From assembly GCF_949987535.1 (NCBI RefSeq), contig NC_080070.1, forward strand, positions 12,653,770-12,717,769: 64,000 bases of DNA. The letters are read 5' to 3'. Numbering within the stretch: position 1 is the stretch's first letter; each line of letters starts with the position of its first letter. The DNA is from Balaenoptera acutorostrata (Eukaryota > Chordata > Mammalia > Artiodactyla > Balaenopteridae). Below, one piece after another: positions 4,650 through 59,293 of this stretch. The position numbers were made by a program, and so were the translations under genes. Under the pieces are notes generated by a model, which saw only the letters and a program-made list of their open reading frames with translations, ran no database searches and was not told where the DNA came from.

Positions 4650-4696
4650 CTATGACCGTGAGCCTGGTGCCTGGGCCAAAATACTGCGTATAGGAG
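4650..4696 (-). other. TRBJ: TRBJ segment, J2-7-like, copy C cluster
   Basis: 47 nt, the human J2-7 length, encoding SYTQYFGPGTRLTVI with the FGPG motif. The heptamer CACTGTG ends at 4697 (4697-4703) and a GTAAG donor follows at 4649-4645. This is the last J before constant copy C. It is identical to the copy B counterpart. Confidence 0.95.
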
Positions 4697-4863
4697 CACA
4701 GTGAGGGGCCCCGCACTCAAACCCCCGCAGCCCCAAGGCCGCTCCCGCTCCCGGGCCCCAGCGCCCTGCTTCAGGGCTGCGAGCACACCAGGTGCCCGCG
4801 TCCGCCCCGCGCTCGCCGCCTTCCATCCTCCCCGCCGCCGCCGCCGGGCCCGCGGGCACTCAC

Positions 4864-4916
4864 CCACCACGGTCAGCCGGCTGCCGGCCCCGAAGGGCAG
4901 GGCGGCGCCTGTAAAG
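4864..4916 (-). other. TRBJ: TRBJ segment, J2-6-like, copy C cluster
   Basis: 53 nt as in human J2-6, encoding FTGAALPFGAGSRLTVV with an FGAG motif. Heptamer GGCTGTG at 4917-4923; donor GTGAG just 3'. It lies in a very GC-rich, CpG-rich stretch (about 4740-5100). The same segment occurs in all three J2-type sets. Confidence 0.95.
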
Positions 4917-4966
4917 CACAGCCCCGGGGCTCCCCACCCAAACCGAGGCGCGCCGCCCGCGCTCAC

Positions 4967-5012
4967 CTAGCACCAGGAGCCGCGTGCCCGGCCCGAAGTA
5001 CTGGGGCTGAGT
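4967..5012 (-). other. TRBJ: TRBJ segment, J2-5-like, copy C cluster
   Basis: 46 nt encoding TQPQYFGPGTRLLVL; the RLLVL ending is the J2-5 hallmark. Heptamer GGCCGTG at 5013-5019, then a 12-bp spacer and a GGTTTTTGC nonamer. Donor GTGAG. Identical in all three J2-type sets. Confidence 0.95.
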
Positions 5013-5073
5013 CACGGCCCCCCAGCGCCGCGCAAAAACCCGCCGCGTCCCCGGCGGCAGCGTCCCCGCTCAC

Positions 5074-5122
5074 CTAGCACCGACAGCCGGGTGCCCGCGC
5101 CGAAAAACAGAGGGTCGTTGCT
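5074..5122 (-). other. TRBJ: TRBJ segment, third in order (J2-4-like body), copy C cluster, variant 5' end
   Basis: 49 nt encoding SNDPLFFGAGTRLSVL. The FGAGTRLSVL body matches human J2-4; no separate J2-3 is visible. Heptamer GGCTGTG, 12-bp spacer, perfect GGTTTTTGT nonamer. The matching segments in the other two sets read SQNTQYF at the 5' end, although the flanks are identical; see findings. Confidence 0.94.
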
Positions 5123-5291
5123 CACAGCCCTGAGGCCCAGGACAAAAACCGGCGCTGCCCTCTCCTGACGTCCCGGACTCAGCCCAGGTCCCCACCGACC
5201 CCGAGCACAGCCCTAAATGAAGATGGGCAGCTGCCCACCTCTCTCCAGCCCGTCCTAGGGAGCGCTCAGGGACCCCAGCTGCCCTCCTTAC

Positions 5292-5342
5292 CCAGCACAG
5301 TCAGCTTGGAACCATTGCCAAAATACAGCTTCCCGGCGTTCA
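5292..5342 (-). other. TRBJ: TRBJ segment, J2-2-like, copy C cluster
   Basis: 51 nt as in human J2-2, encoding NAGKLYFGNGSKLTVL with an intact FGNG motif. Heptamer GGCTGTG at 5343-5349; donor GTAAG. Identical to the copy B counterpart. Confidence 0.95.
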
Positions 5343-5488
5343 CACAGCCCTGGGGACTCGGGCACAAACTTAGCCTTCCCTGAGAGCAGCCCAGGAGGGT
5401 CCACCGTCCACGCCCCAAAAGCCAGAATTCAGGCGGTCATCCAGGCTGGGCAGCCCATCCTCCCTCCCACCTGGAGCACCCTTCTTAC

Positions 5489-5538
5489 CCAGCACAGTGA
5501 GCCGGGTCCCTGGCCCGAAGTACCGCTCATTGTAGGAG
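5489..5538 (-). other. TRBJ: TRBJ segment, J2-1-like, copy C cluster
   Basis: 50 nt encoding SYNERYFGPGTRLTVL. Consensus heptamer CACTGTG at 5539-5545 and GTAAG donor. The other two sets have Q instead of R (a CAG/CGG difference). First J downstream of the D at 6.2 kb. Confidence 0.95.
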
Positions 5539-5545
5539 CACAGTG

Positions 5546-6149
5546 GGAAGGGGCTACCAAGAATTCCTCCCTCTTGCCCTCCTCCCCTGGCACAGACTGG
5601 GACCACCCTCCTTCTCCCTGGCTTCTCTCTTCCCACCTCTCTCCAGAACTAGCTGGACACAGAAATCTGGGCCCTGCCTGAGGTCATCCCCAATTTGCAG
5701 AGAGTCAGCTTGGCTTGGGGATTTACAGTAGTTGTGAAATTGGAAGGGGTATTTGTGATGGAGATTTTGCTGGATTGGGAAGTGTTCTAGGCTAGACCCT
5801 GCCTCTTACTACTTCTGGGACCTGCAACCTCCCTGGCCTTCGTTTCTGCAACTGAAAAATGGGGTAATATCTTCCCCACAGCGTTGTTGTGAGTGCTTAA
5901 CAAATTACACACCAGCAAGTACTTTGTCAAAGGGCAAGTTTTGTGAAAAGCACTGAATCATGATTCCACTTTAATGGCTTGATTCTTCACTTTCCTGGAA
6001 GCTGAGTGTGGAGCAGGGAGAGGCAGAGGTGATCACTGAGTCCAGATCCCTTCGAGATCACATCAGGGACCCGCTCAGGAGATCTCTCCCAGCTACTCTC
6101 CCCATGCAGGAGCCCCCCCTGGGCAGGTGGAGCTATTTTCTGAGGCAGG
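5546..6149 (-). repeat. D-J intron with MIR SINE (about 5796-5935)
   Basis: The core resembles MIR in direct orientation (tcttactacttctgggacct, then gaaaaatggggtaatatctt). The same element recurs at about 14325-14465 and 22800-22930, showing that the three D-J introns share one ancestor. Confidence 0.6.
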
Positions 6150-6188
6150 GCTTTTTGTAAAAGCCCTTCCTCTAACTGAATCATCGTG

Positions 6189-6208
6189 CCCCCCCCCCCC
6201 GAAGTCCC
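6189..6208 (-). other. TRBD: TRBD segment, D2-type, copy C cluster
   Basis: Diversity segment GGGACTTCGGGGGGGGGGGG (20 nt), flanked 5' by CATTGTG, a 12-bp spacer and nonamer 6228-6236, and 3' by CACGATG, a 23-bp spacer (6181-6159) and nonamer ACAAAAAGC (6158-6150). The GGGACT start matches human D2. The G run has 12 residues here and 10 in the copy at 14.7 kb. All frames favour glycine. Confidence 0.93.
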
Positions 6209-6236
6209 CACAATGTTACACTATGATACAAAAATG

Positions 6237-8473
6237 TCCTCTTCTATTGTCCCCCTCCCCTAACGACTGTGCAGAGGCAGGAAGTGCAGGTGGCAGAGGT
6301 TGGTCTGATTGAGTGGGGTGGGAAAAAAACTCAGAGTAATCGAAAGTGGGGAGGGGCTTGGGGAATGTCAGGGTGCTAGTGGAGGGGGAAGGGGACAGAG
6401 AGGCCCCTCCTGGAACTTACGCCACCCTGAGAAGACCTCCTATGTCATCAGGGCTCCCCTCTGGGACACACTGTGCCCACCTGCAAAGACTGGCATTTAT
6501 AGTGAGGCGGGTGGGAGGAGCATCCCTAGAGCAGGTGATGGCAACTTAGGGCAGGAGGACACAGCCTGGAAAGCTCTGCGATTCCCCATTGCTTCCTGAA
6601 TAGGGTCCAAGCTCCTTCCCCTTCATTAGTCCACAGATACTTAATGCACATCTACCATATGCCAGGCCTCATGCTGGTTGCAAGGATAGAGTCCACTCTC
6701 AAAGCGGGAAGCCCCAACCTGCCTTTTCAGCCTTATGACTTCCACCTTGGACCTCGCAGCCTGCTGAGCAGAAGTAACCAGAAGTACCTGACCCTGTAGT
6801 TTCATATCCTGTTCATACATCTGACTATCATGACCTCTCTCCCACATGGCTAACTGAGACCAATTCTTCCTTTGAAGAATTGCCACCTTCTCAGACTCTC
6901 CCCTGATGGTCCCAGTCACCTAGTGCTAGCCTCTGCCTGCATTTTAGGAGACAGCTCACGTTGCTGTTGAAAGCATCACCTAGTATGTTAACCGTTTCTA
7001 TTCATGAATTATCCCCATTATGAACAGGGAAGCTTCTCGGGGACCCTGACCTGGGTATCTTTGTTTTCTTGAAGGTTACGAGCAAATGTTGCAACGATAT
7101 GTGCTTAACGACGAGGCTCCTCTGCTCATGCATACAGGTAGACATATGTGTTCATGCATGTGTGTTGGTATGTGTGCAGACACCCATGTTAGAATGCACG
7201 CAGTGTTGCAGTAGTGGGAGGAGGCTGTGTGCTGCAGGCCTGTGAGGGGGACGATAGATGGCTGTTTCAGGCAGGCCTTAGGGTGATATCTGCTCCTGAA
7301 TTGGGTCACTTTGGGCAAACTCATTGATTCATTCATTTCTTTAAAGAGGATTTATTGGGTTAGTACACTGAACCAAGGTACTATGCCACGTCGCAAGGAT
7401 ACTGTAATACAACACAACCTGGTCCTCAAGGAGCTGACCTTCTAGTGGGGGTGTCAGACAAGGAAAGAGGTAGTTTCCATCAACTGTGGTCAGTGGCAGG
7501 AAGGAGATGCACACAGGGTACTGTGATAGCAAAATACAGGGGGAATTTCATCCAGTTGCATGGAGTAAGGGGCAAAGATCCTCCAGAGAAGGCTACTTGC
7601 TGGGGAAGATGTCATCGCTGAATCTGCAAGGATGAGTGGGAGCTCACATATGTGTCATTCCAGGTAGAGGAGTGCAAGATGGCCTGAGAGCCAGTGACTC
7701 GGGGGTTCAGGGTGACAGGAGTGAGGGTGAGTGTGGATAAAGTGGTGGAGGACAATGGTGGGTCTTTTATGCCATCCTGAGGACTTTGGGTTACATCACC
7801 ATGGTGACAATGAGAGAGTAAAGAGCTTTGGGAGGATTTCTAGAAATACCAACAGGGCTGATCCTTGGTTTTAGGGAAACTTATTTTCTATCCTCCCAGG
7901 ACTGATCAGGGACATATTCACACACATTTAATTCACTAGAGTGAAATTTATAACCAGCTTTGTAACTTAAACTGGAAGATACATCTGACAATGAGAATAG
8001 ATAGTAATAGTAATTTCTCTTCTTCTCACCTGGAATCACTCCTTGGTGACGAAGGAAGCTGAGGAGTGCCCTCAGGGAGACAGCGGAGAGGAGCGTGGGT
8101 GATGTATATGACACCCAGCTTTGTGGGCCATGGGGACATGACCACTCAGCAAGTGGACACAGCTCTTCCTCAGAGCATCTTTGTCCAGGTAGGACAGAAA
8201 TTTCCTATAGGCAGCATCACAGCTTTTTCTAGGTTGTTCCAGAGTAAGCCTCTCTCTTCACCAATCACACCCTTTCACATGTACTTAAGTCTTCCTGACA
8301 ATGAGGAGGAGTACCAGCCACAGGCTGGGACCCTGGACCCTCCTACCTGAGGGGACTGCACTTTCTTGAACACCTCTTGTTTCTACCCTGGCTGGAGTCA
8401 CATGGGACTTCAGAGATGGACGGAAGAGATATCTAGACACTCACAAGGCAGACTCAACCCAGATCAGGCCATT
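6237..8473. other. Intergenic: constant copy B 3' flank to D2-type segment, with L2 fragments
   Basis: No gene is seen. It contains a MIR/L2-like piece at about 6625-6690 and an L2-like stretch at about 7326-7830 beginning near an attcattcattt motif. The whole interval recurs nearly unchanged at 14764-17000 (offset 8527). Confidence 0.55.
6494..6501 (-). promoter_or_regulatory. Candidate TATA element upstream of the 6.2-kb D
   Basis: TATAAATG on the minus strand, about 285 bp 5' of the D, with ETS- and E-box-like sequence (aggaagtgcaggtgg) between. Germline promoters 5' of D segments are known in mouse. The assignment here is inference; a copy lies at 15021-15028. Confidence 0.3.
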
Positions 8474-8479
8474 TTTATT
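8474..8479 (-). terminator. Polyadenylation signal of constant gene copy B
   Basis: AATAAA on the minus strand, about 210 bases past the stop codon. Duplicated at 17001-17006 for copy A. Confidence 0.7.
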
Positions 8480-8690
8480 GGTTGAATCAGTTCAGGCCCG
8501 CCAGGGTCCCCCTTGGGCTAGGGAGATTTTGGTCATGAGTGTTTGGGGCGCATGCACACAGGGGTAGATACTGGGATGCGTGGAGAGATGAGAGCACCTC
8601 TTCTGAAGCACTGGGTAGGAATGGAAAAAGCAGAATTCACATCAGGGCAATAACAGGCTGGAAGCTCTTGGCTCCGCCTCTAAGCTGGCT

Positions 8691-10393
8691 TCAGGAATCC
8701 TTTCTCTTGACCTGAGGAAGAGAAAGTTCGGGGGTCACCAGGAGCCAGGAGTGCTGAGGACTAAGAGAAAGTAGGGTGTCCCACTGACATGACAAAGAGC
8801 AGGGTTTCCCCAACATCCATCCATTGGGTTTTCAGGTGACCCCAGTTTCTCCTTCACAGCATGGCGCTTGCATTGTGATCCCAGAGGTATAAGGTGTCTT
8901 CTGAGGCTTGTGGGTGACTCCCCCTCTTCCTCTCTGCCCACTCTGGTCCTGGCAGGATCTGTGTGTTCCTGGGTGTGAGTTGCTGTGTTTCAAGTGTCAC
9001 CTCGAACCTGCTGGCCCCACCCTGCCCTCCTCCTTACCATGGCCATCAGCACCAGGGCGCTGACCAGCACAGCATAGACGGTGGCCTTCCCCAGCAGGAT
9101 CTCATAGAGGATGGTGGCAGACAGGACCCCTTGCTGATAGGACACTGTTGGCAGGAAGGGAGAGCAGGTAGGTACCTGTGAGCAGGGATCTCTGGTCTCC
9201 TTGCCCACGCACCACCCCCCCTTCCATGCCCCACCAGGGTCCATGGGTTTTGAATTCTCTGGTTCCAGAGCAAAGACCATGGGAGACGGAGACAAAGGAG
9301 CAGGGGGCCACTTACCCGAGGTCAAGCCACAGTCTGAAAGAAAAAAGGGGGAGGGAAATGGATGAGAGAGTCCATCTTCAAAAGCAGATTCAGAACTAAG
9401 CCAGCCTTCCTCAGTCCAATAGCTGGCAAGGTGCTAACTCTTGCCAACAACCATGTGAGCTTGGAAGTGGATCCTTCCCCACTTGAGCCTTCAGATAAGA
9501 CTCCAGCTTTGGCTGACACCTGATTGCAGCCTCTGGAGGAAGACGAGCCAGCTAAGTTATGCCCAAATTCCTGACCCATCAAAACTACACAATAACAAAT
9601 GTGTGGTATTTTGAGCTGCTTTCAAAAAAATCAAGAAAAACAAAAAACTCAGCCAGACTCCCAGGCTCAGGGCAGCCTCTGGTCAGAGTCCTAGCACCTT
9701 CCTTCCTTCTGGCCACAGCATCCTTGAAGGTCACGGAACATGGCAGCACTGAACGGGATGAGGACCCACTGCTCAGACCCTGAGCTGTGCAGGCGGGTAG
9801 GGAGGGGGACCTTTCAGCACAGCTGAGTTGGGCTGACGATCTGGGATCTGGGGGAGGAATTAGCCCGAGGTGCCCTGTCCTCCCTCACGGTGGGCTTCCC
9901 ACACCCTCCCCTTTAGTCTGCATCTAGTCTCTCTGCTCTCCCCCCTGGATCTCCCCCTTTGTCTGCTCTGCCTCCCTCCTTGCTGAACCCTGCTGGAGCG
10001 GCTCACCTGCTCGGCCCCACACCTCGGCACTGATGTTCTGGGTGACGGGTTTGGGTCCGTCCTGCTTCCACTCGTCCTCGTCCGAGACCCCGTGGAACCA
10101 GACTTGGCAGCGGAAGAGGTTGCGAGGGTTGTACCAGAAGGGCGCGGAGACCCTCAGCCGGCTGCTCAGACAGTAGCTGGAGTCACTGCGGCTGGGGTCC
10201 TCCTTGTGGGGCTGAGAGTCCGTGCTGACCCCTGTCTTGACCTGCTTCCCGTTCACCCACCAGCTCAGCTCCACGTGGTCGGGGTAGAAGCCCGTGGCCA
10301 GGCACACGAGCGTGGCCTTCTGGGTCCGGGAGATCTCAGCTTCTGACGGTTCGAACACAGCCACCTTGGGTGGGGTCACCTTGCTCAGGTCGT
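8691..10393 (-). CDS. TRBC: T cell receptor beta constant gene, copy B (middle)
   Basis: Same role and architecture as copy C. Exon 1 10393-10007 (387 nt), exon 2 9333-9316 (18 nt, DCGLTS), exon 3 9144-9038 (107 nt, transmembrane), exon 4 8711-8691 (VKRKDS, TGA). All splice borders are intact and the product is 177 residues. It encodes the same protein as copy A as far as I can compare, and differs from copy C at three residues. Exons 1-3 closely match copy C, but sequence past exon 3 (tail exon and 3' UTR) is clearly different, as expected when gene conversion homogenises only the 5' part. Fed by the D at 14.7 kb and the J set at 14.07-13.18 kb. Confidence 0.97.
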
Positions 10394-13178
10394 CTGGAAG
10401 GGAGAGGGGTTGGGAGCAGGGGTGGCCGGAGAGCCGGCTGGGCGTGGTAGGGCTGCGCCTGTGCGTGTGAGTTGGGGGCACAGGGAAGGGGGCCACGGGG
10501 TCATCGTAAAAGGAAATTACGTAGTATTAGGTCCTGGTTGTTTGTTTGGGGGTCACCACCCGCTCCTCTGTGATTGTGCTCCCTCGGCCTGCCTGGCCTT
10601 TGCATTGACCCTACGACAGGCCTGTCTCCTGTGTCCCCAGCCCCTGAGGTGGCCTTACAGTTTCCTCAGCTCAGACAGAGAGCCATCTCCCTGTGATTCA
10701 AATGCAGGCATCTTCAACCTTCTTTGCCCCTTTGATTCCACGTATTCTACTTTTCCCGACCAGCAAGCTTCCTAAATAGGCATCTGACACCATCAGAGCA
10801 ACTTCGGCTCCCGGCTGGCTCGCTACAACTAAGCCTCTGGCCTGTGGCGTCCCCCAGGGCTCCAGGTGAAGGAATTCCAGTTAACACCCCTGCGGTCTCT
10901 TCATCTGGCTGCCTCATTGCTTCTGGGCCCTCCTACGTTCATGTTATTCTGCTCTTTGCTTTTTATCGATTGTTTTGTTTGTTTCTGAGCAATTCTGTTA
11001 CAAGCAAGACACCTCATTCTAAAGAGATCTAGTTTAGGCTGGAAGATGGAGAAAATGTTCTTCTAACTGACTCTTCACATTTCCCTGGATGTGATCTGAC
11101 TTCAGGGCTGGCTTCCTGGGTGTGTGACCTGTGCAGTCACACGGGACCCCACACTTAGAAGGGCCCCTTGTTGATTTAATGTGCTGGTGTCACCATTTTG
11201 AAATTCTAAGTAAATTTTAATAAAAGCCCTGGGTGTTCCCTTTGCGGTGGTTCTGCTTCCCATCAGGTCTGCTGCCCCACCCTGCTTTTCTCACCTTGCT
11301 GATAACTCCTCTGTCCCTAGGTCTTTACTGGCCGACCAGGTCTGAAATGGAAATCTCCTAACTTCTCTCTGCTGTCCTGGCTCCACCAGGCTTTCTGCCC
11401 CCAGCCTGGTTATTCACTCTCGCCTCAAAGACCCTGCCCCTGGGTTTCAACCAGCCCTCCAAGGGCACTATGGAATCTACTCCTCTGACCTCCTCCCCCA
11501 GCAAACTCTCAGCCCCTATTGGAAAAAGTAAAGATGCCTTTGGAGCCACGTGCGATGCTCCCCATGATGTTGACGTGATGGACCGAACGATCAGAAGCCA
11601 GACCTTCCTCACACCCTGAAGCACTGACTGCATGGCTGCACGATGAGGGCAAAGCCGGTTCTCCCTCCATGTTTGCGAGTCCCTGTGGGGTGTGGGTCGG
11701 TTTGCCCATGTGGGTGTACTGTGTGTGTCCTGGTGAGCTTCTGTTGCGTGTGCTTGGATGTGGGCTGAACTAGCCTCAGGCAGAACTCTGAAGTTTATTG
11801 GTCCTGTTCCCAGCCCTCCTCCCCATTAGCCACATGCCAAACCTGCCCCTCCTTTGGCACTGGGCTCCCCTCCCTTGCCAGTGGCCACCTAGCAGAAGGG
11901 TAGGGAGGGGACCACTGCATTACAAGAGGTTTCCTGGATACTCTCCATGTAGCTACTCTTGTAAGTCTCACAGCAGATTTGGCAGTAGGTATTGTTGATG
12001 ACATTGCAAAGAAGAGGGAAGGTTCCCACAGATTCACTTGGCCAAGGTCACCAGATCATTAAAGGGCCAGGGCTTGGGACTCAGATTTACCTGGTTCTGA
12101 GGTCTCCTGCTTTTCTCCACCCTGGCTGATCACAGGAACCCAGCTTCCCCTCCGGGAACACACACTTCAGCTGATCCCCACTGGCTCCATCTTAATGAGC
12201 CTAAGTACAAACAGCGCTTGCTGTTGTCAAATCATCCAGGTAAATATACCCGTATTGAGGGGTTCCTCCCCTCTGGAGCCTCAATGCTCCCAACAGCAGG
12301 TGACCTTTAAGGTCCTTTTCCAGCACTAAGAGCCTAAGATCCTTCTGGGAATGTTCCTCACCTCACAAGCAAAATATCTGCATTTTAATGCATGTCCTGC
12401 ACCATCTGGCTGTTTAACCTAGAAGACATGGTGTGAGGAGGGAGATTTGGGGCCAGGGGATGAGGGGGGTACATTTGGTGAGTAAATCCACCCAGTGGCC
12501 CAGGTTCCCATCCAGCCCCCATGTGCTGTACACACAGCCTGGCCCTCAGGGGTCTGGGGCTTAGGAAGAGAGGAAGAGTTTTAAACCTAATTTTAAATCC
12601 AAACTTCTAAACAGTAAATCAACAAACCCCGCTGATTTCGATTCTCTCCCTCACTGCCTGGCGTTTCTCTTTCACCTCTCTGTTCCACACTCTTGTCTGT
12701 CATCCTTTTCCTCCTCTGTTCCCTGGAAGCCTCCATCTGCACCTCCCAGGAGCCGGCTCTGCAGGGGGCCACACCCCGTGCTCATCCCTGCCTGTTCCTG
12801 CCCCTCCGGCTCATTTTCCCCTTTGCATCAGCTACACATCCTCCTGCCCTTCCCTCAGCCCAGGCTGTCCTCCTCGGTCTTTTTCTCCAATCAAGCAGCT
12901 CTCAGAGTCCTAATAAATCCTCTCTCTCTCCAATGCTCACCCTGTCCCTAAATATCTCAGAAACAAAGAGACCAAAGCCCCCCCTTTCCCTCTGTCCAAA
13001 TTCCCGTCCCGGGAGTATCCCTACCCAATACCTTCCCCACCCAATATTCCCCACCTCCCTTGCAGAGTTGACCCCCAGCTGGACAACTGGCCACGCGCCT
13101 CAGCTCCAGCCCACACCACCCATCTCTGGGGCCCCCCCAGGCGCCGGGCTGGAAGGAGGGGAGACATCCAAATCTTAC
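10394..13178 (-). other. J-C intron of the copy B cluster
   Basis: No exon. It carries an approximately 890-bp segment (11136-12026) absent from the copy C intron and lacks the 550 bp found there at 2473-3023. From about 12060 upward it is nearly identical to copy C, and throughout it is nearly identical to the copy A intron. Confidence 0.6.
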
Positions 13179-13225
13179 CTATGACCGTGAGCCTGGTGCC
13201 TGGGCCAAAATACTGCGTATAGGAG
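13179..13225 (-). other. TRBJ: TRBJ segment, J2-7-like, copy B cluster
   Basis: 47 nt, SYTQYFGPGTRLTVI, heptamer CACTGTG at 13226-13232 and GTAAG donor. Identical to the segment at 4650. Confidence 0.95.
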
Positions 13226-13392
13226 CACAGTGAGGGGCCCCGCACTCAAACCCCCGCAGCCCCAAGGCCGCTCCCGCTCCCGGGCCCCAGCGCCCTGCTT
13301 CAGGGCTGCGAGCACACCAGGTGCCCGCGTCCGCCCCGCGCTCGCCGCCTTCCATCCTCCCCGCCGCCGCCGCCGGGCCCGCGGGCACTCAC

Positions 13393-13445
13393 CCACCACG
13401 GTCAGCCGGCTGCCGGCCCCGAAGGGCAGGGCGGCGCCTGTAAAG
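13393..13445 (-). other. TRBJ: TRBJ segment, J2-6-like, copy B cluster
   Basis: 53 nt, FTGAALPFGAGSRLTVV, heptamer GGCTGTG at 13446-13452, GTGAG donor. Confidence 0.95.
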
Positions 13446-13495
13446 CACAGCCCCGGGGCTCCCCACCCAAACCGAGGCGCGCCGCCCGCGCTCAC

Positions 13496-13541
13496 CTAGC
13501 ACCAGGAGCCGCGTGCCCGGCCCGAAGTACTGGGGCTGAGT
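13496..13541 (-). other. TRBJ: TRBJ segment, J2-5-like, copy B cluster
   Basis: 46 nt, TQPQYFGPGTRLLVL, heptamer GGCCGTG at 13542-13548, GTGAG donor. Confidence 0.95.
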
Positions 13542-13602
13542 CACGGCCCCCCAGCGCCGCGCAAAAACCCGCCGCGTCCCCGGCGGCAGCGTCCCCGCTC
13601 AC

Positions 13603-13651
13603 CTAGCACCGACAGCCGGGTGCCCGCGCCGAAGTACTGAGTGTTTTGGCT
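13603..13651 (-). other. TRBJ: TRBJ segment, third in order (J2-4-like), copy B cluster
   Basis: 49 nt, SQNTQYFGAGTRLSVL. Heptamer GGCTGTG, 12-bp spacer, perfect GGTTTTTGT nonamer. Same as the copy A cluster segment; the copy C cluster has a different 5' end. Confidence 0.95.
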
Positions 13652-13820
13652 CACAGCCCTGAGGCCCAGGACAAAAACCGGCGCTGCCCTCTCCTGACGT
13701 CCCGGACTCAGCCCAGGTCCCCACCGACCCCGAGCACAGCCCTAAATGAAGATGGGCAGCTGCCCACCTCTCTCCAGCCCGTCCTAGGGAGCGCTCAGGG
13801 ACCCCAGCTGCCCTCCTTAC

Positions 13821-13871
13821 CCAGCACAGTCAGCTTGGAACCATTGCCAAAATACAGCTTCCCGGCGTTCA
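13821..13871 (-). other. TRBJ: TRBJ segment, J2-2-like, copy B cluster
   Basis: 51 nt, NAGKLYFGNGSKLTVL, heptamer GGCTGTG at 13872-13878, GTAAG donor. Confidence 0.95.
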
Positions 13872-14017
13872 CACAGCCCTGGGGACTCGGGCACAAACTT
13901 AGCCTTCCCTGAGAGCAGCCCAGGAGGGTCCACCGTCCACGCCCCAAAAGCCAGAATTCAGGCGGTCATCCAGGCTGGGCAGCCCATCCTCCCTCCCACC
14001 TGGAGCACCCTTCTTAC

Positions 14018-14067
14018 CCAGCACAGTGAGCCGGGTCCCTGGCCCGAAGTACTGCTCATTGTAGGAG
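14018..14067 (-). other. TRBJ: TRBJ segment, J2-1-like, copy B cluster
   Basis: 50 nt, SYNEQYFGPGTRLTVL, consensus heptamer CACTGTG at 14068-14074, GTAAG donor. Confidence 0.95.
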
Positions 14068-14074
14068 CACAGTG

Positions 14075-14678
14075 GGAAGGGGCTACCAAGAATTCCTCCC
14101 TCTTGCCCTCCTCCCCTGGCACAGACTGGGACCACCCTCCTTCTCCCTGGCTTCTCTCTTCCCACCTCTCTCCAGAACTAGCTGGACACAGAAATCTGGG
14201 CCCTGCCTGAGGTCATCCCCAATTTGCAGAGAGTCAGCTTGGCTTGGGGATTTACAGTAGTTGTGAAATTGGAAGGGGTATTTGTGATGGAGATTTTGCT
14301 GGATTGGGAAGTGTTCTAGGCTAGACCCTGCCTCTTACTACTTCTGGGACCTGCAACCTCCCTGGCCTTCGTTTCTGCAACTGAAAAATGGGGTAATATC
14401 TTCCCCACAGCGTTGTTGTGAGTGCTTAACAAATTACACACCAGCAAGTACTTTGTCAAAGGGCAAGTTTTGTGAAAAGCACTGAATCATGATTCCACTT
14501 TAATGGCTTGATTCTTCACTTTCCTGGAAGCTGAGTGTGGAGCAGGGAGAGGCAGAGGTGATCACTGAGTCCAGATCCCTTCGAGATCACATCAGGGACC
14601 CGCTCAGGAGATCTCTCCCAGCTACTCTCCCCATGCAGGAGCCCCCCCTGGGCAGGTGGAGCTATTTTCTGAGGCAGG
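14075..14678 (-). repeat. D-J intron of the copy B cluster, with MIR at about 14325-14465
   Basis: Near-identical duplicate of 5546-6149. Nothing else is recognised. The part up to about 14548 has a homologue upstream of the copy A J set, ending at the deletion joint near 23030. Confidence 0.6.
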
Positions 14679-14717: not shown

Positions 14718-14735
14718 CCCCCCCCCCGAAGTCCC
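14718..14735 (-). other. TRBD: TRBD segment, D2-type, copy B cluster
   Basis: GGGACTTCGGGGGGGGGG (18 nt). 5' signal: CATTGTG (14736-14742), 12-bp spacer, nonamer 14755-14763. 3' signal: CACGATG (14717-14711), 23-bp spacer, nonamer 14687-14679. Signals are the same as at the 6.2-kb D; only the G run is shorter, by two. Confidence 0.94.
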
Positions 14736-17217: not shown

Positions 17218-18920
17218 TCAGGAATCCTTTCTCTTGACCTGAGGAAGAGAAAGTTCGGGGGTCACCAGGAGCCAGGAGTGCTGAGGACTAAGAGAAAGTA
17301 GGGTGTCCCACTGACATGACAAAGAGCAGGGTTTCCCCAACATCCATCCATTGGGTTTTCAGGTGACCCCAGTTTCTCCTTCACAGCATGGCGCTTGCAT
17401 TGTGATCCCAGAGGTATAAGGTGTCTTCTGAGGCTTGTGGGTGACTCCCCCTCTTCCTCTCTGCCCACTCTGGTCCTGGCAGGATCTGTGTGTTCCTGGG
17501 TGTGAGTTGCTGTGTTTCAAGTGTCACCTCGAACCTGCTGGCCCCACCCTGCCCTCCTCCTTACCATGGCCATCAGCACCAGGGCGCTGACCAGCACAGC
17601 ATAGACGGTGGCCTTCCCCAGCAGGATCTCATAGAGGATGGTGGCAGACAGGACCCCTTGCTGATAGGACACTGTTGGCAGGAAGGGAGAGCAGGTAGGT
17701 ACCTGTGAGCAGGGATCTCTGGTCTCCTTGCCCACGCACCACCCCCCCTTCCATGCCCCACCAGGGTCCATGGGTTTTGAATTCTCTGGTTCCAGAGCAA
17801 AGACCATGGGAGACGGAGACAAAGGAGCAGGGGGCCACTTACCCGAGGTCAAGCCACAGTCTGAAAGAAAAAAGGGGGAGGGAAATGGATGAGAGAGTCC
17901 ATCTTCAAAAGCAGATTCAGAACTAAGCCAGCCTTCCTCAGTCCAATAGCTGGCAAGGTGCTAACTCTTGCCAACAACCATGTGAGCTTGGAAGTGGATC
18001 CTTCCCCACTTGAGCCTTCAGATAAGACTCCAGCTTTGGCTGACACCTGATTGCAGCCTCTGGAGGAAGACGAGCCAGCTAAGTTATGCCCAAATTCCTG
18101 ACCCATCAAAACTACACAATAACAAATGTGTGGTATTTTGAGCTGCTTTCAAAAAAATCAAGAAAAACAAAAAACTCAGCCAGACTCCCAGGCTCAGGGC
18201 AGCCTCTGGTCAGAGTCCTAGCACCTTCCTTCCTTCTGGCCACAGCATCCTTGAAGGTCACGGAACATGGCAGCACTGAACGGGATGAGGACCCACTGCT
18301 CAGACCCTGAGCTGTGCAGGCGGGTAGGGAGGGGGACCTTTCAGCACAGCTGAGTTGGGCTGACGATCTGGGATCTGGGGGAGGAATTAGCCCGAGGTGC
18401 CCTGTCCTCCCTCACGGTGGGCTTCCCACACCCTCCCCTTTAGTCTGCATCTAGTCTCTCTGCTCTCCCCCCTGGATCTCCCCCTTTGTCTGCTCTGCCT
18501 CCCTCCTTGCTGAACCCTGCTGGAGCGGCTCACCTGCTCGGCCCCACACCTCGGCACTGATGTTCTGGGTGACGGGTTTGGGTCCGTCCTGCTTCCACTC
18601 GTCCTCGTCCGAGACCCCGTGGAACCAGACTTGGCAGCGGAAGAGGTTGCGAGGGTTGTACCAGAAGGGCGCGGAGACCCTCAGCCGGCTGCTCAGACAG
18701 TAGCTGGAGTCACTGCGGCTGGGGTCCTCCTTGTGGGGCTGAGAGTCCGTGCTGACCCCTGTCTTGACCTGCTTCCCGTTCACCCACCAGCTCAGCTCCA
18801 CGTGGTCGGGGTAGAAGCCCGTGGCCAGGCACACGAGCGTGGCCTTCTGGGTCCGGGAGATCTCAGCTTCTGACGGTTCGAACACAGCCACCTTGGGTGG
18901 GGTCACCTTGCTCAGGTCGT
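17218..18920 (-). CDS. TRBC: T cell receptor beta constant gene, copy A (5'-most)
   Basis: Exon 1 18920-18534, exon 2 17860-17843, exon 3 17671-17565, exon 4 17238-17218 (VKRKDS, TGA). Essentially the same sequence as copy B at offset 8527, in exons, introns and 3' UTR. Ig-domain cysteines, hinge Cys, transmembrane Lys and an NIS glycosylation site are all present. Because the J1 cluster has no constant gene of its own in this sequence, this copy is the first acceptor for both J1 rearrangements (J1-6 to exon 1 is about 6.4 kb) and rearrangements to the J set at 22.5-21.7 kb. By position it replaces TRBC1; by sequence it belongs to the duplicated C2-type unit. Confidence 0.97.
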
Positions 18921-21686: not shown

Positions 21687-21733
21687 CTGTGACCGTGAGC
21701 CTGGTGCCTGGGCCGAAATACCGCTCATTGGAG
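21687..21733 (-). other. TRBJ: TRBJ segment, J2-7-like, copy A cluster (divergent)
   Basis: 47 nt, SNERYFGPGTRLTVT with intact FGPG, heptamer CTCTGTG at 21734-21740, donor GTGAG. The 5' residues and the VT ending differ from the SYTQYF...VI segment of the other two sets. The VT ending matches human J2-7. Confidence 0.94.
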
Positions 21734-21855
21734 CACAGAGTCCCGGTCCCGCACGCAAACCCCTCAGCGCCCAGCCACTCGGCCTCCGGGTCCCAGCGCC
21801 CGGCTCCGACCTTCCATCCCGCCCCGCCGCCGCTGCCGGGCCCGCGGGCACTCAC

Positions 21856-21908
21856 CCACCACGGTCAGCCGGCTGCCGGCCCCGAAGGGCAGGGCGGCGC
21901 CTGTAAAG
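21856..21908 (-). other. TRBJ: TRBJ segment, J2-6-like, copy A cluster
   Basis: 53 nt, FTGAALPFGAGSRLTVV, heptamer GGCTGTG at 21909-21915, GTGAG donor. Confidence 0.95.
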
Positions 21909-21958
21909 CACAGCCCCGGGGCTCCCCACCCAAACCGAGGCGCGCCGCCCGCGCTCAC

Positions 21959-22004
21959 CTAGCACCAGGAGCCGCGTGCCCGGCCCGAAGTACTGGGGCT
22001 GAGT
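21959..22004 (-). other. TRBJ: TRBJ segment, J2-5-like, copy A cluster
   Basis: 46 nt, TQPQYFGPGTRLLVL. Heptamer GGCCGTG 22005-22011, 12-bp spacer, nonamer 22024-22032. Confidence 0.95.
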
Positions 22005-22077
22005 CACGGCCCCCCAGCGCCGCGCAAAAACCCGCCGCGCATCCCGCCGCGTCCCCGGCGGCAGCGTCCCCGCTCAC

Positions 22078-22126
22078 CTAGCACCGACAGCCGGGTGCCC
22101 GCGCCGAAGTACTGAGTGTTTTGGCT
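22078..22126 (-). other. TRBJ: TRBJ segment, third in order (J2-4-like), copy A cluster
   Basis: 49 nt, SQNTQYFGAGTRLSVL. Heptamer 22127-22133, 12-bp spacer, perfect GGTTTTTGT nonamer 22146-22154. Confidence 0.95.
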
Positions 22127-22295
22127 CACAGCCCTGAGGCCCAGGACAAAAACCGGCGCTGCCCTCTCCTGACGTCCCGGACTCTGCCCAGGTCCCCACC
22201 GACCCCGAGCACAGCCCTAAATGAAGATGGGCAGCTGCCCACCTCTCTCCAGCCCGTCCTAGGGAGCGCTCAGGGACCCCAGCTGCCCTCCTTAC

Positions 22296-22346
22296 CCAGC
22301 ACAGTCAGATGGGAGCCATCCCCAGAATACAGCTCTCTGGTATTCA
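22296..22346 (-). pseudogene. TRBJ: TRBJ segment, J2-2-like, copy A cluster, FGXG motif broken
   Basis: 51 nt, encoding NTRELYSGDGSHLTVL. The conserved Phe of the J motif is Ser (TTC-type codon changed to TCT), giving SGDG. The GTAAG donor and the GGCTGTG heptamer (22347-22353) are intact, so it can probably recombine and splice but would give a beta chain without the J Phe. The counterparts in the other sets keep FGNG. Best called an ORF-type, probably non-productive J. Confidence 0.85.
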
Positions 22347-22491
22347 CACAGCCCTGGGACCCCGGAGCAAACTTTGCCTTCTCAGAGAGCAGCCTAGGAG
22401 GGTCCAGCGCCCACGCCCCCAAAGCCAGGGTTCAAGGGGTCATCCAGGCTGGGCAGCCCATCCTCCCTCCCACCTGGAGCACCCTTCTTAC

Positions 22492-22541
22492 CCAGCACAG
22501 TGAGCCGGGTCCCTGGCCCGAAGTACTGCTCATTGTAGGAG
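22492..22541 (-). other. TRBJ: TRBJ segment, J2-1-like, copy A cluster
   Basis: 50 nt, SYNEQYFGPGTRLTVL, consensus heptamer 22542-22548, GTAAG donor. First J of a set that has no D2-type segment upstream; the nearest D is D1, about 5.6 kb 5'. Confidence 0.95.
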
Positions 22542-22548
22542 CACAGTG

Positions 22549-23030
22549 GGAAGGGGCTACCAAGAATTCCTCCCTCTTGCCCTCCTCCCCTGGCACAGAC
22601 TGGGACCACCCTCCTTCTCCCTGGCTTCTCTCTTCCCATCTCTCTCCAGAACTAGCTGGACACAGAAATCTGGGCCCTGCCTGAGGTCATCCCCCATTTG
22701 CAGAGAATCAGCTTGGCTTGGGGACTTACAGTAGTTGTGAAATTGGAAGGGGTATTTGTGATGGAGATTTAGCTGGATTGGGAAGTGTTCCAGGCTAGAC
22801 CCTGCCTCTTACTACTTCTGGGACCTACAACCTCCCTGGCCTTCGTTTCTGCAACTGAAAAATGGGGTAATATCTTCCCCACAGCGTTGTTGTGAGTGCT
22901 TGACAAATTACACACCTGCAAGTGCTTTGTCAAAGGGCAAGTTTTGTGAAAACTTTTATGATTATCCCACTTTAACGTTTTGATTCTTCATGTTCCTGGG
23001 AAGCTTAGTGTGGAGCAGGGAGAGGCAGAG
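22549..23030 (-). other. Truncated D2-J2 intron upstream of the copy A J set
   Basis: Homologous to the copy B D-J intron, including the MIR (about 22800-22930), as far as the shared stretch gtggagcagggagaggcaga. It then stops near 23030, about 150 bp short of where the D2 segment should lie. No D or D-type recombination signal follows. Confidence 0.8.
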
Positions 23031-25283
23031 GGGGTTCGTTTGGGCGTCACCATCCCAATTCTCTGCTGTTAGTCTCCCTCATCTTTGCCCCTTCTTTCTC
23101 CCCCCAATGGGCACTCACTACTGACTGCCTCCCACAAGTCCCTAAGGTGGCATTATATCCTGATTTTCTTGGCTGTGTTTGAAAAGCCCTGTACTTGGGG
23201 CCCTGTAGGATTATCCATCGAATGAGTATATCTGTCTATTTTCTTCCTAGTTCAAATCCCTCTTTGGTGCATGACTATCTAACTTTTCAGACTTAGAAGT
23301 AATTACAGTAGAGTTGAAATAAGCCTGGATTTTGAGGCAGAGGATTCCTACTAGTAGCATGATCCTGAGAACTAAACTGACTTTTTCCAATGATCATTTT
23401 CCTGTTTTTGCAGGGTGTATGTGCTTATCTGTTTGAGTGACAGCACATATTAATTAGAATTAGCCATTCTTCCCCAGAAGAGATACTTTTCCCGTTGCAT
23501 CTGACATATTCTTTTCTCTATACTCTACCCAACTCATGTTTTGTTTTGATTTTACATGTAACTGGCTTTGTGGAGCCCCCATGCCTCTGGCTATTATCCT
23601 ATCTGATGTTCCACACTGACTGCTACACCAGGGCGCCCGGGGTGTCTGGTAGCTTGCCGAGGATGGCTGGAATCCCATGAAAGGAACTGTTCATGGGTTG
23701 AACACTTTCTTATTTCCAGTGCCCAGCAAACCTCTCTACCCGCTTTTGAATCCTAGCTCTAGCCGCGCTTTATATTCATAAAAGCAGCAAAAGCTTAGAA
23801 ACGAACAAATCCCGAAGTCCTAGGGCCAGTTCATCAGAGGGTTCATATTATAAAGTCCCAGGCCCTTTGACATGCCTGACAGAAGGGAGAGAATTTCTGG
23901 AATTGTTGGAAGGCAGGCCCTCATGTGAAGACATGGAGGGATGGGAAAAAAACACGTCTACCTTTCAAGCACCCTCCTTGTTGCCAGAATGTACTGTGCC
24001 CTCTGTTTGGCTCTGTTCTGGGAATGAGTTTGTGGAGCAGAAGTATGGCAAACCCAGATGTCTCCACTTTATCCGAGTTTGGGAAATGTTTCTAATGGGA
24101 AAATTGAGCCACAGGTTTGGAAAAAGGCAAACTCTGTGACACAGTGAGGATAAACAACAAGAATGAAAAGGATGGCTACAAGAGGGTAAATCCTTTACAA
24201 AGGATTTTCACATGATTTAGTCCCTTAACAGTTTCAGGACCCCAAGAGACTACCATTGTCACCTCTGTTTTATACATCTCAGAGGGCCTGAGACAGTTTA
24301 GGTCACTTTGCAAATTGCATGAGCCCCTCCTTCCCCAGAACCCAGGCATTTTGAATCCCAGTGATTTGTACTTTCCAATTTCCATGACACTCCCTGGCAC
24401 GTGCTCCCATCTGCAGGACAAAGGCTGCTCCAGGCCAACCAATCTGGTAGAACCTCTGTGGCCCACTGCTCTGGCCGTGTCTCTAACTCCAGCCCAGGCC
24501 CGTCTCACCCTTGCCCTGCTTCTCCCACCTGCCTGCTTTCTCCAGAGGGTGGTAATGGTGTGTTAGTGTTTCACGATGGGCCTCTGACTCGCTGATCTCA
24601 GCACAGATCCTGAGGTTTGAGAGCATGGGGCCTCAACCTACTTCTTTCTGCCTTTGCTGTTGCTAAGATCGTGTAAGTTTCCAGTTGTAACAGCTTATTC
24701 AGACCTACCTCCTCTGACCCCCACCAAGCGCAATGTTCCCCAGGGCCACCCCTGCAAGCTCACATGATGCCGTGACACGGACCTCGGCCCTTAGGGCTCA
24801 GGAGCCCCCCTCAAGCCACCTCAGTCTCACCAAGCTGCTCCCCTATGGCCTCCCGAGTCCTTAAACCACCTCAGGAAGACACACATGGATCTTGGAGACA
24901 GAGAAGGAGGACAAGGAAGGCGAGGACAGTGCTCTGAGCTGGAGGGAGGTGTTGGGGTGGATTTTAACATAGAAGACGGAGCTATTCACCAAAACGGGGT
25001 CAACAGTGCAGGATCAGAGTTAGAAGGAGGGGGGGAAATGGAGAAGATCAGATAAGAAAGGGAAAGTAAAGCAGCACACCCGCTGAAACAGGAGAGAGGA
25101 ATCTTGGAGAACAATAAGAAGAAGAATGAGAAAACACAAAGCCGGGAGAGGAAGCATAGAAGCACAGCTCCTTTGAGCCCTCGGCCGAAGAGCCGCATCA
25201 AACACAGCAGAGCAAGCTGGAGATGCTCCGGAAGGAAAGGGCAGTTCTGACCCCCTCCTTACACCCCCCTCCCTGCCTGATAC
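23031..25283 (-). other. Truncated J1-C1 intron (remnant of the cluster lacking TRBC1)
   Basis: Immediately past the joint the sequence aligns with the end of the J2-C2 introns: gtttgggcgtcacca here against gtttgggggtcacca at 10544, then ccctaaggtggcattat against cccctgaggtggcctta. A MIR-like stretch at about 23300-23420 parallels 2580-2710. This identifies it as the intron that once led to TRBC1. No constant exon is present. The rest, up to J1-6, shows nothing I recognise. Confidence 0.75.
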
Positions 25284-25336
25284 CTGTCACGGTGAGCCTG
25301 GTGCCGATCCCAAAGTGGAGGGGCGAATTATAGGAA
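25284..25336 (-). other. TRBJ1-6: TRBJ1-6
   Basis: 53 nt as in human, SYNSPLHFGIGTRLTVT with an FGIG motif (human FGNG). Heptamer AGCTGTG at 25337-25343; donor GTATC. Confidence 0.95.
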
Positions 25337-25778
25337 CACAGCTGCAGGAGGCTGTAGGAAAAACCCCCAGAGGTCTCCAGCCAGAGCGCTAGTCTTAGCT
25401 CCTTGAGAGCAGAGATGACCACCTTTCCCTGCCTGGACTCACGGCTCTGGACCAAAGGGATCCCACTGGGAGAAAGGCCTAAGCACACTCTGGGGAAAGA
25501 GGGGAAAGAGGAGGAGGCTTAGGAGGGGCCGATCCACGCACAGGAGAAGGAGGGATGGACCACCGACAGAAGAGTAAGGAAGCAGTTTATGGGCTGAAGA
25601 CTTAGAGGACAGACAGAGGAATCAACCAAGCCTCATCTAAAGCAGCGGCAGACCCAGCTCCCTGGAAGCCCCACAGGGACCAGAGTTTACTCAATTCCCT
25701 CCCACCGGGGCTGGACAGAGAGATAGACACTCCGGGTCCAAGGGACAATGGCCCTGTCTCCCGGCTCCGGCGCCTTAC

Positions 25779-25828
25779 CCAGGACAGAGAGTCGAGTCCC
25801 ACCTCCAAAGTGCTGCACCCGGTCGCTC
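25779..25828 (-). other. TRBJ1-5: TRBJ1-5
   Basis: 50 nt as in human, SDRVQHFGGGTRLSVL with FGGG. Heptamer TACTGTG at 25829-25835; donor GTAAG. Confidence 0.95.
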
Positions 25829-26051
25829 CACAGTATAACACGGGCGTGGCAAACCCCAGAGCGGCCGGTATGGGGCCCTTCTTTCCAGAAACGAGCTTCC
25901 CCCCAGAACTTCGGGGGGTGCTAGCACCTTCTCCGCTCACCCACACTCTCCGCCTTTTCTCTGCTGCGTTCTCAGTCCCTGCTTTCTCTAAGGGGAACTT
26001 CTAGAACTCCAGCCTTACAACACATCATCCCCAGGGAAGACCTTTACTTTC

Positions 26052-26102
26052 CCAGCCCAGAAAGCTTCATTCCGCTGCCAAAATACAGGCTTTCATTAGT
26101 CA
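26052..26102 (-). pseudogene. TRBJ1-4: TRBJ1-4 with lost splice donor
   Basis: 51 nt as in human, TNESLYFGSGMKLSGL with the FGSG motif intact. Heptamer TGTTGTG 26103-26109. The dinucleotide after the J end is GA, not GT (CTGG then GAAAGTAAAGG). The nearest GT lies four bases further, and using it would add GAAA and shift the frame into the constant exon. The usual LTVL ending is also altered. Likely non-productive. Confidence 0.85.
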
Positions 26103-26659
26103 CACAACACTAAAGCCTGGCAGGGAAACTGTGCCTACGCCTCCCATTCCTTCCCCATCCCCCTGCCGGTCCCCCTGCAGCTCTCCTGTCCCCTTCCTTG
26201 GCGGAATTTTAACTCCCGGAGGTGGAGTGGGTGACAACTGTCCAACCCGAAGAGCTGCGGTCAGAGGACCAGTTTGGCCCCCTGTGAGACTTCTCACCCC
26301 CCTCTCCTGTGTCCATCTCCTTTCTGCGCGAGGGAGAGAAACGGCAGGACTGACAGATCCAAGGCCAGACGCTCTCCCATCTACCGTGGCCATGAGGGGC
26401 ACCCTCCAAGGAGATGGAAGATGGACAAGGAGACCCCTTTCTAGCTGAGACTACTTGCCTCTCGGTAGGGAAACCCAGGCTTGGCACAGCGAGCCTATGA
26501 CATTATTGGAGATGGAGGCCGTCCATCTCATTTCATCAAGACGAGAATTCAGATTTTTCTGATAAAAACATGCTTTAACCTAGGCACCCATATCGGAGGC
26601 TCCATCTGGACCCTGCCCTTCCCTGTAGGTTCCCAGCCCTCCAGTCCCAACTGGCTTAC

Positions 26660-26709
26660 CTATGACAGTGAGCCGGCTTCCCTCCCCAAAATAGTAGGTG
26701 TCTCCAAAG
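26660..26709 (-). other. TRBJ1-3: TRBJ1-3
   Basis: 50 nt as in human, GDTYYFGEGSRLTVI. Heptamer GGCTGTG 26710-26716, 12-bp spacer, nonamer GGTTTTGAA 26737-26729. A CHR SINE sits seven bases beyond the nonamer, and its target-site duplication overlaps the nonamer; see findings. Confidence 0.95.
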
Positions 26710-26744
26710 CACAGCCTCCCAGATTCACTTCAAAACCTCTCCTT

Positions 26745-27040
26745 GGGCTTCCCTGGTGGCGCAGTGGTTGAGAGTCTGCCTGCTAATGCAGGGGACACGG
26801 GTTCGAGCCCTGGTCTGGGAGGATCCCACATGCCGCGGAGCGGCTGGGCCCGTGAGCCACAATTGCTGAGCCTGCGCGTCTGGAGCCTGTGCCCCGCGAC
26901 GGGAGGGGCCGCGATAGAGAAAGGCCCGCGCACCGCGATGAAGAGTGGCCCCCGCTTGCCGCAACTGGAGAAAGCCCTCGCACGAACCGAAGACCCAACA
27001 CAGCCAAAAATAAATAAATAAATAAATAAATAAGAAAATC

Positions 27041-27073
<33 letters not shown>
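26745..27073 (+). mobile_element. CHR-type SINE inserted beside the TRBJ1-3 recombination signal
   Basis: tRNA-derived head (GGGCTTCCCTGGTGGCGCAG, B-box-like GGTTCGAGCCC), AAATAAAT tail and long A run. Target-site duplication aaaacctctcctt at 26732-26744 and 27074-27086. The target lies in the J1-2 to J1-3 spacer. Confidence 0.93.
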
Positions 27074-27080
<7 letters not shown>

Positions 27081-27282
27081 CTCCTTGTCTGCTGGGATTC
27101 TGGGAGAGGTTAGGGTGTTCATGGCTCCCTTCCCTCCCAGAGCCACCAGCCCCCTTCAAACACTCTGCATACCGTTCCAGAACTTTCCAGGGCCCCAGGA
27201 CCCAGGAGCTGGGTCATCCCTTCCCTCCCACATTCCCCGAGAGTCCTCCCTCATGGTACCCACCTGGAGACCCTGGCCTTAC

Positions 27283-27326
27283 CTACAACAGTCAGCTTGG
27301 TCCCTGGGCCGAAGGTATAGTCATAG
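27283..27326 (-). other. TRBJ1-2: TRBJ1-2
   Basis: 44 nt, YDYTFGPGTKLTVV with FGPG, four bases shorter than human J1-2. The heptamer TGATGTG (27327-27333) is imperfect but keeps GTG at the coding side; the nonamer is weak. Donor GTAAG. Confidence 0.9.
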
Positions 27327-27413
27327 CACATCAGAATACAGCCACCTTACAATGCACGCTTGGGACCCGCCTTCCCCTACGAGGGGCCAGGAAAGGCCTG
27401 GACTATGTCTTAC

Positions 27414-27461
27414 CTACAACCGTGAGCCTGGTGCCTTCTCCGAAGAAGACTTCAGTGTTTG
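27414..27461 (-). other. TRBJ1-1: TRBJ1-1
   Basis: 48 nt as in human, NTEVFFGEGTRLTVV. Consensus heptamer CACTGTG 27462-27468; donor GTAAG. Confidence 0.95.
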
Positions 27462-28108: not shown

Positions 28109-28121
28109 GCCCCCCTGTCCT
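28109..28121 (-). other. TRBD1: TRBD1
   Basis: Diversity segment AGGACAGGGGGGC. 5' signal: heptamer CGTTGTG (28128-28122), 12-bp spacer, nonamer 28149-28141. 3' signal: CACGGTG (28108-28102), 23-bp spacer, perfect ACAAAAACC nonamer (28078-28070). The flanks (CACGGTGATTCAAC, TTTTTGTA) are close to human D1. With D2 lost upstream of the copy A J set, this D serves 12 J segments before the next D. Confidence 0.96.
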
Positions 28122-33705: not shown

Positions 33706-37053
<3,348 letters not shown>

Positions 37054-58823: not shown

Positions 58824-59293
58824 GATAAACTGCTGGCACAGAGGTACAAAGAGGTCTGGTTGGTGCTGGCCGATGCCAGGGTCAGGGGGAAATCTGGCTT
58901 CTTTTTTCGAGAGACAATGTAGCCATCAGGGACATCTCCCTTTTCAACCAACTCAAGATTGCTTGAAAAGTAGATCAGCTTTAGACCCAGCCCTGGGTCT
59001 TGTCGATACCAGTACATAGCATCGTGGTTCATATTCTGAGAACAAGTCAAGGTCACCCTCTTCCTCGTCTCTGTGATCTGGTGTCTCGGGCTCTGGGTCA
59101 CATCGGCTTCCAGGGGGTCTGTAGGGGAAGGAGACAGAACTAGAGACAGCTGAGTAGTCGACTTGCGCTGCAGCTTCTAGGAAAGGGCTTGAGGTAAGAC
59201 CTGAAAGCTATGGCCAAGGCATGCGCATGAGTTCTAGGACTCACCTGCTCCCAGGAGACAAAGCAGGACACAGCCCAGGAGCCGGGGACCCAT
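58824..59293 (-). CDS. TRBV27: T cell receptor beta variable gene, TRBV27-like, functional
   Basis: Leader exon 59293-59245 (49 nt, [16 protein letters not shown]) and V exon 59118-58824 (295 nt), with GTGAG donor and CAG acceptor. The mature V region reads [13 protein letters not shown]..., with first Cys in [11 protein letters not shown], Trp in [24 protein letters not shown], an NQT glycosylation site and LYLCASSL at the end. No stop or frameshift. Recombination signal: CACAGCA (58823-58817), 23-bp spacer, ACAAAAAGG (58793-58785). Leader and framework are closest to human TRBV27 among those I recall; TRBV28 is the next candidate. It encodes the V part of TCR beta and joins to D segments 30 kb or more downstream. 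Confidence 0.92.

Follow-up and report, generated by a model that had tools for sequence, protein, structure and literature searches.

To our knowledge, placental mammals have been described as keeping tandem, self-contained D-J-C units in the TRB locus. A sequence-only reading of the DNA considered here proposed that a whale departs from this plan: TRBC1 and the next D segment were thought to have been lost in one deletion, leaving one D and one C for two J sets. Does this arrangement exist in the germline of the animal, and how did it arise? A natural locus with one D and one C for two J sets would show that the D-J-C unit is not required, and the hybrid locus would constitute a germline experiment on why TRBC1 has been kept in most mammals. 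In practical terms, cetacean TRB assays that assume the presence of TRBC1 or of a third D would need revision. The window that we analyzed is a stretch of 64,000 nucleotides from Balaenoptera acutorostrata (C13:12653770-12717769 in an assembly of 2.77 Gb and 1374 contigs), which carries the D-J-C end of the TRB locus on its minus strand.

Organization of the locus

The region has the features of a mammalian TRB D-J-C region: D segments with 12/23 signals, J segments with an FGXG motif and a splice donor, four-exon TRBC genes, and an inverted TRBV30-like exon downstream. The C1-set domain (PF07654) is annotated on a protein identical to the TRBC of the window. TRBC exon 1 matches a blue whale entry at 98% identity and a partial Sousa entry, which covers 62% of the exon, at 94%. 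The inverted V exon was identified by a V motif scan on the plus strand, approximately 11 kb past the window start; its name, TRBV30-like, was given from the V motif, position, and orientation only. Because neither the window nor the next 20 kb contains N bases, the sequence from D1 to the inverted V exon is continuous. Upstream of D1 lie trypsinogen-like reading frames (33706-36180, minus strand) and a TRBV27-like exon (58835-59119, minus strand), which is the expectation for a mammalian TRB locus. A narwhal entry matches this V exon at 92% identity across 94% of the query. The blue whale match at 63% is another V, and no blue whale TRBV27 was among the matches listed. Taken together, the TRBC and V identities point to a baleen whale, a lineage well apart from the dolphin, although few residues are involved and one of the genes is prone to conversion.

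Read along the minus strand, the order of elements is D1, six J1, a junction at 23031-23034, six J3, constant gene copy A, D2-J2-C copy B, and D2-J2-C copy C. The scans for D and J used consensus recombination signals. D1 (28109-28121) is a 13-bp segment with 12- and 23-spacer signals that matches 28/32 signal bases in the two-signal scan, and no other D precedes the J1 and J3 sets. The J1 set (25285-27461), delineated by J scans, translations, and donors, consists of J1-1 (27415-27461), J1-2 (about 27284-27326), J1-3 (26661-26709), J1-4 (about 26050-26100), J1-5 (25780-25828), and J1-6 (25285-25336). J scans likewise located the J3 set of copy A, which comprises six J without a D of their own (21688-22541). 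The constant gene of copy A (17218-18920), the equivalent of dolphin TRBC3, was traced from the exon 1 reading frame, donors, and anchors in exons 2-4; its derived coordinates are 18534-18920 for exon 1, 17843-17860 for exon 2, 17565-17671 for exon 3, and 17218-17238 for the coding part of exon 4. Copy B comprises a D2 (14718-14735, two-signal scan), a J2 set (13180-14067, J scans), and a constant exon 1 (10007-10393) identical to that of copy A. Copy C comprises a D2 (6189-6208), a J2 set (4651-5538), and a constant exon 1 of the TRBC2 type (1821-2207), found by the same respective means. All of these elements are on the minus strand. Copies A and B have a common third intron and 3' end, from which those of copy C differ; the J-C intron of copy C also contains approximately 550 bases (2474-3022) that are absent from A and B.

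Two J sets within the window are thus incomplete: J1 is without its own C and J3 is without its own D. The artiodactyl 1-3-2 arrangement provides three C genes, one for each J set; the window also contains three C genes, but none of them follows J1, and two of the J sets are of the J2 type.

The junction and the missing genes

A sharp junction between a D-J intron and the sequence that precedes a constant gene is confirmed. On its left side, the match to copies B and C in a self-BLAST of the window stops at 23031 (93.7% and 94.4%), and identity in a MAFFT alignment drops to background above this position. Between 22580 and 23031, the sequence is 94.9% identical to the D2-J2 introns of B and C. 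In the 500-base bin adjacent to the junction on this side, A stands apart from a concordant B and C at 23/499 columns, and no other difference occurs. The segment at 22542-23031 (minus strand) is homologous to the D2-J2 introns of both copies, and we designate it the D3-J3 intron remnant.

For the right side, a 150-base query (23032-23181) was scored at 2522 placements, which were 250-base windows taken every 50 bases on both strands, with the query's own location left out. All of the twelve highest-scoring placements overlap pre-C sequence of copy A, B, or C; the top score was 81 for A, 81 for B, and 74 for C, compared with 50 for the best unrelated placement in the window. Under stricter scoring, 23032-23331 reached 40, whereas 500 shuffles gave at most 35 and the best unrelated placement scored 27. 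The last aligned base is 23034, which faces 19067; the latter lies 147 bp ahead of copy A exon 1, whose first base is 18920. The segment at 23034-25284 (minus strand) is designated the J1-C1 intron remnant from local alignment of its last part, 23034 to about 23161. Together with the side-by-side sequences, the self-BLAST end (23031) and the alignment end (23034) place the junction at 23031-23034 (minus strand), close to the breakpoint of about 23030 that the sequence-only reading had given. That reading had also assigned the left flank to the D2-J2 intron of the copy B cluster and the right flank to the end of a J-C intron about 140 bp before exon 1, and both assignments are borne out. It had, moreover, staked the deletion on homology of the right flank to pre-C intron, and this homology was found. 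Bases 23032-23033 belong to neither side. With copies A and B as stand-ins for the lost parents, microhomology at the join amounts to a few bases at most, and the join looks like a product of non-homologous end joining.

A scan of the whole window for D segments with both recombination signals returned three D at 25/32, whereas the interval between J1-6 and J3-1 contained none at a score of at least 22/32. D-like places in this interval number one at 21/32 and three at 20/32, the whole window holding 20 and 49 at these levels; the one at 21/32, at 22807, was taken as chance, given how many places in the window reach the same level. No match to TRBC exon 1 was found between J1-6 and J3-1. The J1 set is therefore without a constant gene and the next six J are without a D, as had been claimed.

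Searches were extended to the whole assembly. A TRBC exon 1 DNA query returned four matches, corresponding to the three genes of the window and one fragment, and a D2 region query against the 1374 contigs returned two, corresponding to copies B and C; all of these first-look candidates were scored (4/4 for exon 1, 2/2 for the D2 region). A 21-base piece of the D-J intron had three matches, all inside the window. The fragment, at C13:53484939 (85%), was considered as a displaced TRBC1 and rejected. It contains exon 1, exon 3, and exon 4/3'UTR pieces of copy C with introns absent, ends A-rich, and shares the scaffold of the locus at a distance of approximately 41 Mb; this structure identifies it as a truncated processed copy of the TRBC2 type, not TRBC1. 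A displaced D3 was also rejected, the D2 region query having returned copies B and C alone. Neither TRBC1 nor a third D was found elsewhere in the 2.77-Gb assembly by the exon 1 and D2 region searches.

A germline deletion that fused clusters 1 and 3 is, in our view, very likely. The deletion is supported because a single junction has non-homologous sides, neither gene was found elsewhere in the assembly, and the same gene content is reported for the dolphin; on these grounds the interpretation offered by the sequence-only reading holds. The deleted block would extend from 147 bp before TRBC1 exon 1 to approximately 160 bp past the cluster 3 D, and the product would be a D1-J1-J3-C3 hybrid. 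If the interval from C3 to D2 (19067 to 14558) serves as a guide, approximately 4.5 kb would have been lost. Two details of the earlier claim call for adjustment. The lost D had been called D2; its loss stands, but in artiodactyl naming it is the D of cluster 3. The wording "one deletion" holds for the deletion, but its singleness rests on parsimony, which is not proof.

The dolphin locus and competing explanations

The bottlenose dolphin TRB locus is reported to contain D1 and six J1 without C1, J3 without D3, and then C3, D2-J2-C2, and an inverted TRBV30 (PMC8070946). The window resembles it in the absence of C1 after J1 and of D3 before J3, in cluster order, and in a nonconserved TRBJ3-2, which in the dolphin is classified as an ORF with a nonconserved J motif (PMC8070946). 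In copy A, J3-2 (22297-22346, minus strand) has SGDG in place of FGXG, and its counterparts in copies B and C have FGNG. Copy A corresponds to dolphin cluster 3 because the odd J3-2 motif is found in A and is absent from B and C. The window thus combines the features of the dolphin locus (C1 and D3 lost, TRBJ3-2 without the J motif) with a recent extra D2-J2-C unit, which gives it three C genes compared with two in the dolphin (PMC8070946). The dolphin C genes differ at two extracellular residues and one cytoplasmic residue (PMC8070946); copies A and C differ at one residue in each of exons 1, 3, and 4. Two differences count against the correspondence: the dolphin J3 and J2 sets have seven J each, compared with six each here, and dolphin TRBJ1-5 contains a stop, whereas J1-5 is open in the window (PMC8070946). 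The junction does not figure in the portion of the dolphin report that was available (PMC8070946). Among the papers listed by searches of the open-licence literature, none besides that of the dolphin concerns a whale TRB locus.

The dolphin authors ascribe the absence of C1 and D3 to an assembly gap (PMC8070946). We lean toward a different view, in which all living cetaceans inherited one ancient deletion of TRBC1 and TRBD3 and the "assembly gap" of the dolphin reflects its true germline. Judged from the likeness of the two species, the deletion probably predates the split of toothed and baleen whales. If this is true, whales have lived for >30 million years on a fused D1-J1-J3-C3 cluster, and a gap in the dolphin reference would become biology.

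The strongest competitor, to which we assign a distinctly lower probability, holds that the deletion is real but private to a haplotype or species, and that the dolphin keeps C1 and D3 inside a true sequence gap. Strain-level deletions are possible, as NZW mice reportedly illustrate. A gap is also what the dolphin text gives (PMC8070946). However, that two cetaceans should each have lost or gapped exactly the same two genes independently is less probable than one shared event, and the J3-2 anomaly marks the surrounding cluster as orthologous.

Dolphin cDNA was considered as a test of D3 loss and proved uninformative. In the Results of the dolphin report, D was assigned in 21/32 clones (9 D1-J2, 7 D1-J3, and 5 D2-J2), and J2, J3, and J1 were used in 20/32, 11/32, and 1/32 clones, respectively; the Discussion gives slightly different counts and names TRBV30-D2-J3 clones (PMC8070946). 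The dolphin reference contained no D3, and D3 use could not be scored (PMC8070946). D1-J3 joins are no test of D3 loss because the pig, in which D3 is present, shows 23 D1-J3 versus 1 D3-J3 (PMC6230588). Such joins also occur in goat, where D1-J3 stands to D3-J3 as 1 to 2 (PMC7488459), and in sheep, where the figures are 6 to 9 (PMC2806336). As to J1, its use is 66/163 in pig blood, summed from printed totals (PMC6230588), and 3 in goat, for which the printed J counts sum to 28 for 27 clones (PMC7488459).

The extra unit, copy B (6030-14558), is by its pattern of shared sites a recent mosaic, which follows copy C across D and J and changes over to copy A in the J-C intron. In three-way bins on the D-J side, B and C agree against A at 23, 28, 71, and 9 sites versus 0, 8, 0, and 0. 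From the bin starting at 21031, sites at which B equals A dominate (17 versus 1), after which there are zero B-C sites. Three substitutions and two bases of a G-run are the differences between the A and B units in an alignment of approximately 6 kb that reaches from the J-C intron to D2, with two gaps at its end left uncounted. The two D2 segments (14718-14735 and 6189-6208) measure 18 and 20 bp by scan; they differ by two bases of a G-run, which could be real or a sequencing error. Copy B may be the product expected of unequal crossover in the J-C intron, in which case it is likely a copy-number variant, or may be a false duplication. With copy B set aside, the order in the window would be D1-J1-J3-C3-D2-J2-C2, which is the dolphin order.

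The near-identity of clusters A and B makes this locus a hard assembly case, and it bears on the proposal that near-identical cluster reads were collapsed or misjoined while TRBC1 and D3 are present in the animal. The gap invoked by the dolphin authors (PMC8070946) and the draft of the wild Bactrian camel, in which D1-J1 adjoins a TRBC2-like gene and a gap was held responsible (PMC6558370), lend this proposal some weight. A repeat-driven misjoin, however, would be expected in shared sequence, and the sides of the junction are unrelated. Furthermore, the divergence of the flank from B and C is similar to that of the rest of the J3 set, and a further exon 1 gene or D2 region is absent from the 1374 contigs searched. 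We consider assembly error improbable. Unequal crossover between TRBC genes is named by the cattle authors as the usual explanation for changes in cluster number (PMC2685407), and copy B resembles a product of such a process. As a source of the hybrid, unequal homologous crossing over, whether in TRBC genes or in D-J regions, is very improbable, since it joins equivalent positions and the junction joins a pre-C position to a post-D position. These explanations overlap; their probabilities and that of the germline deletion need not sum to one.

Predicted working of the proposed hybrid cluster and comparison with other TRB loci

If a germline deletion fused clusters 1 and 3, a single D and a single C are predicted to serve the two J sets, and neither J1 nor J3 would have a D other than D1. 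Transcription of a D1-J1 or D1-J3 join would continue into C3, and the donor of the joined J would splice past the remaining J to the C3 acceptor. D1 would also be able to join the downstream J2 sets, each of which has its own C. Splice sites accompany the four exons of the copy A constant gene, and the FGXG motif and GT donor are kept in J1-1, J1-3, J1-5, J1-6, J3-1, J3-3, J3-4, J3-5, and J3-7. J1-2 also keeps both, with a recombination signal that appears weak by eye; dolphin TRBJ1-2 has a noncanonical nonamer (PMC8070946). J1-4 is without GT at the usual donor place, and J3-2 is without the F of FGXG. The statement that D1 serves 12 J is thus correct in its count, but not all 12 are intact. 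It is also correct in that D1 is the only D upstream of these J, but D1 can join the downstream J2 sets as well, nine D1-J2 clones being reported in the dolphin (PMC8070946). In sheep, TRBJ1 was cis-spliced to TRBC3 in 4/72 clones although TRBC1 is present (PMC2806336), which offers a precedent, by analogy, for the splicing of J1 to C3.

Among the artiodactyls, the accounts available for sheep, goat, cattle, pig, and dromedary give the cluster order 1-3-2, as in the window, but each cluster in these species has its own D and C, which is not the case here. In cattle, the C genes of the first two clusters have a common third intron and 3' end (PMC2685407), like those of copies A and B. The draft of the wild Bactrian camel is similar to the window in that D1-J1 lies next to a TRBC2-like gene; its authors considered a gap most likely, the domestic Bactrian camel having three clusters (PMC6558370). 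Pinniped TRB loci have fewer D-J-C clusters, with only one annotated in some species (PMC13128417). Whole clusters are missing in these animals, and a hybrid cluster is not described in the part of that report available.

The pairing of each J set with its own C, which the sequence-only reading had extended to other mammals, is not universal. NZW mice reportedly carry a natural germline deletion of Cb1-Db2-Jb2, described by Kotzin in 1985 and Noonan in 1986, in which J1 uses the downstream C. As in the window, the first C and the next D are lost from the germline and J1 is left with a downstream C. The NZW deletion removes the Jb2 set as well, whereas the window keeps the next J set, J3, which shares D1. 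By analogy, the NZW deletion is a precedent in kind for the deletion proposed here. The absence of Db2-Jb2 from NZW mice is also stated elsewhere (PMC7550431). What the whale adds is a junction of non-homologous sequences at which the next J set is kept without its D, an arrangement perhaps common to cetaceans.
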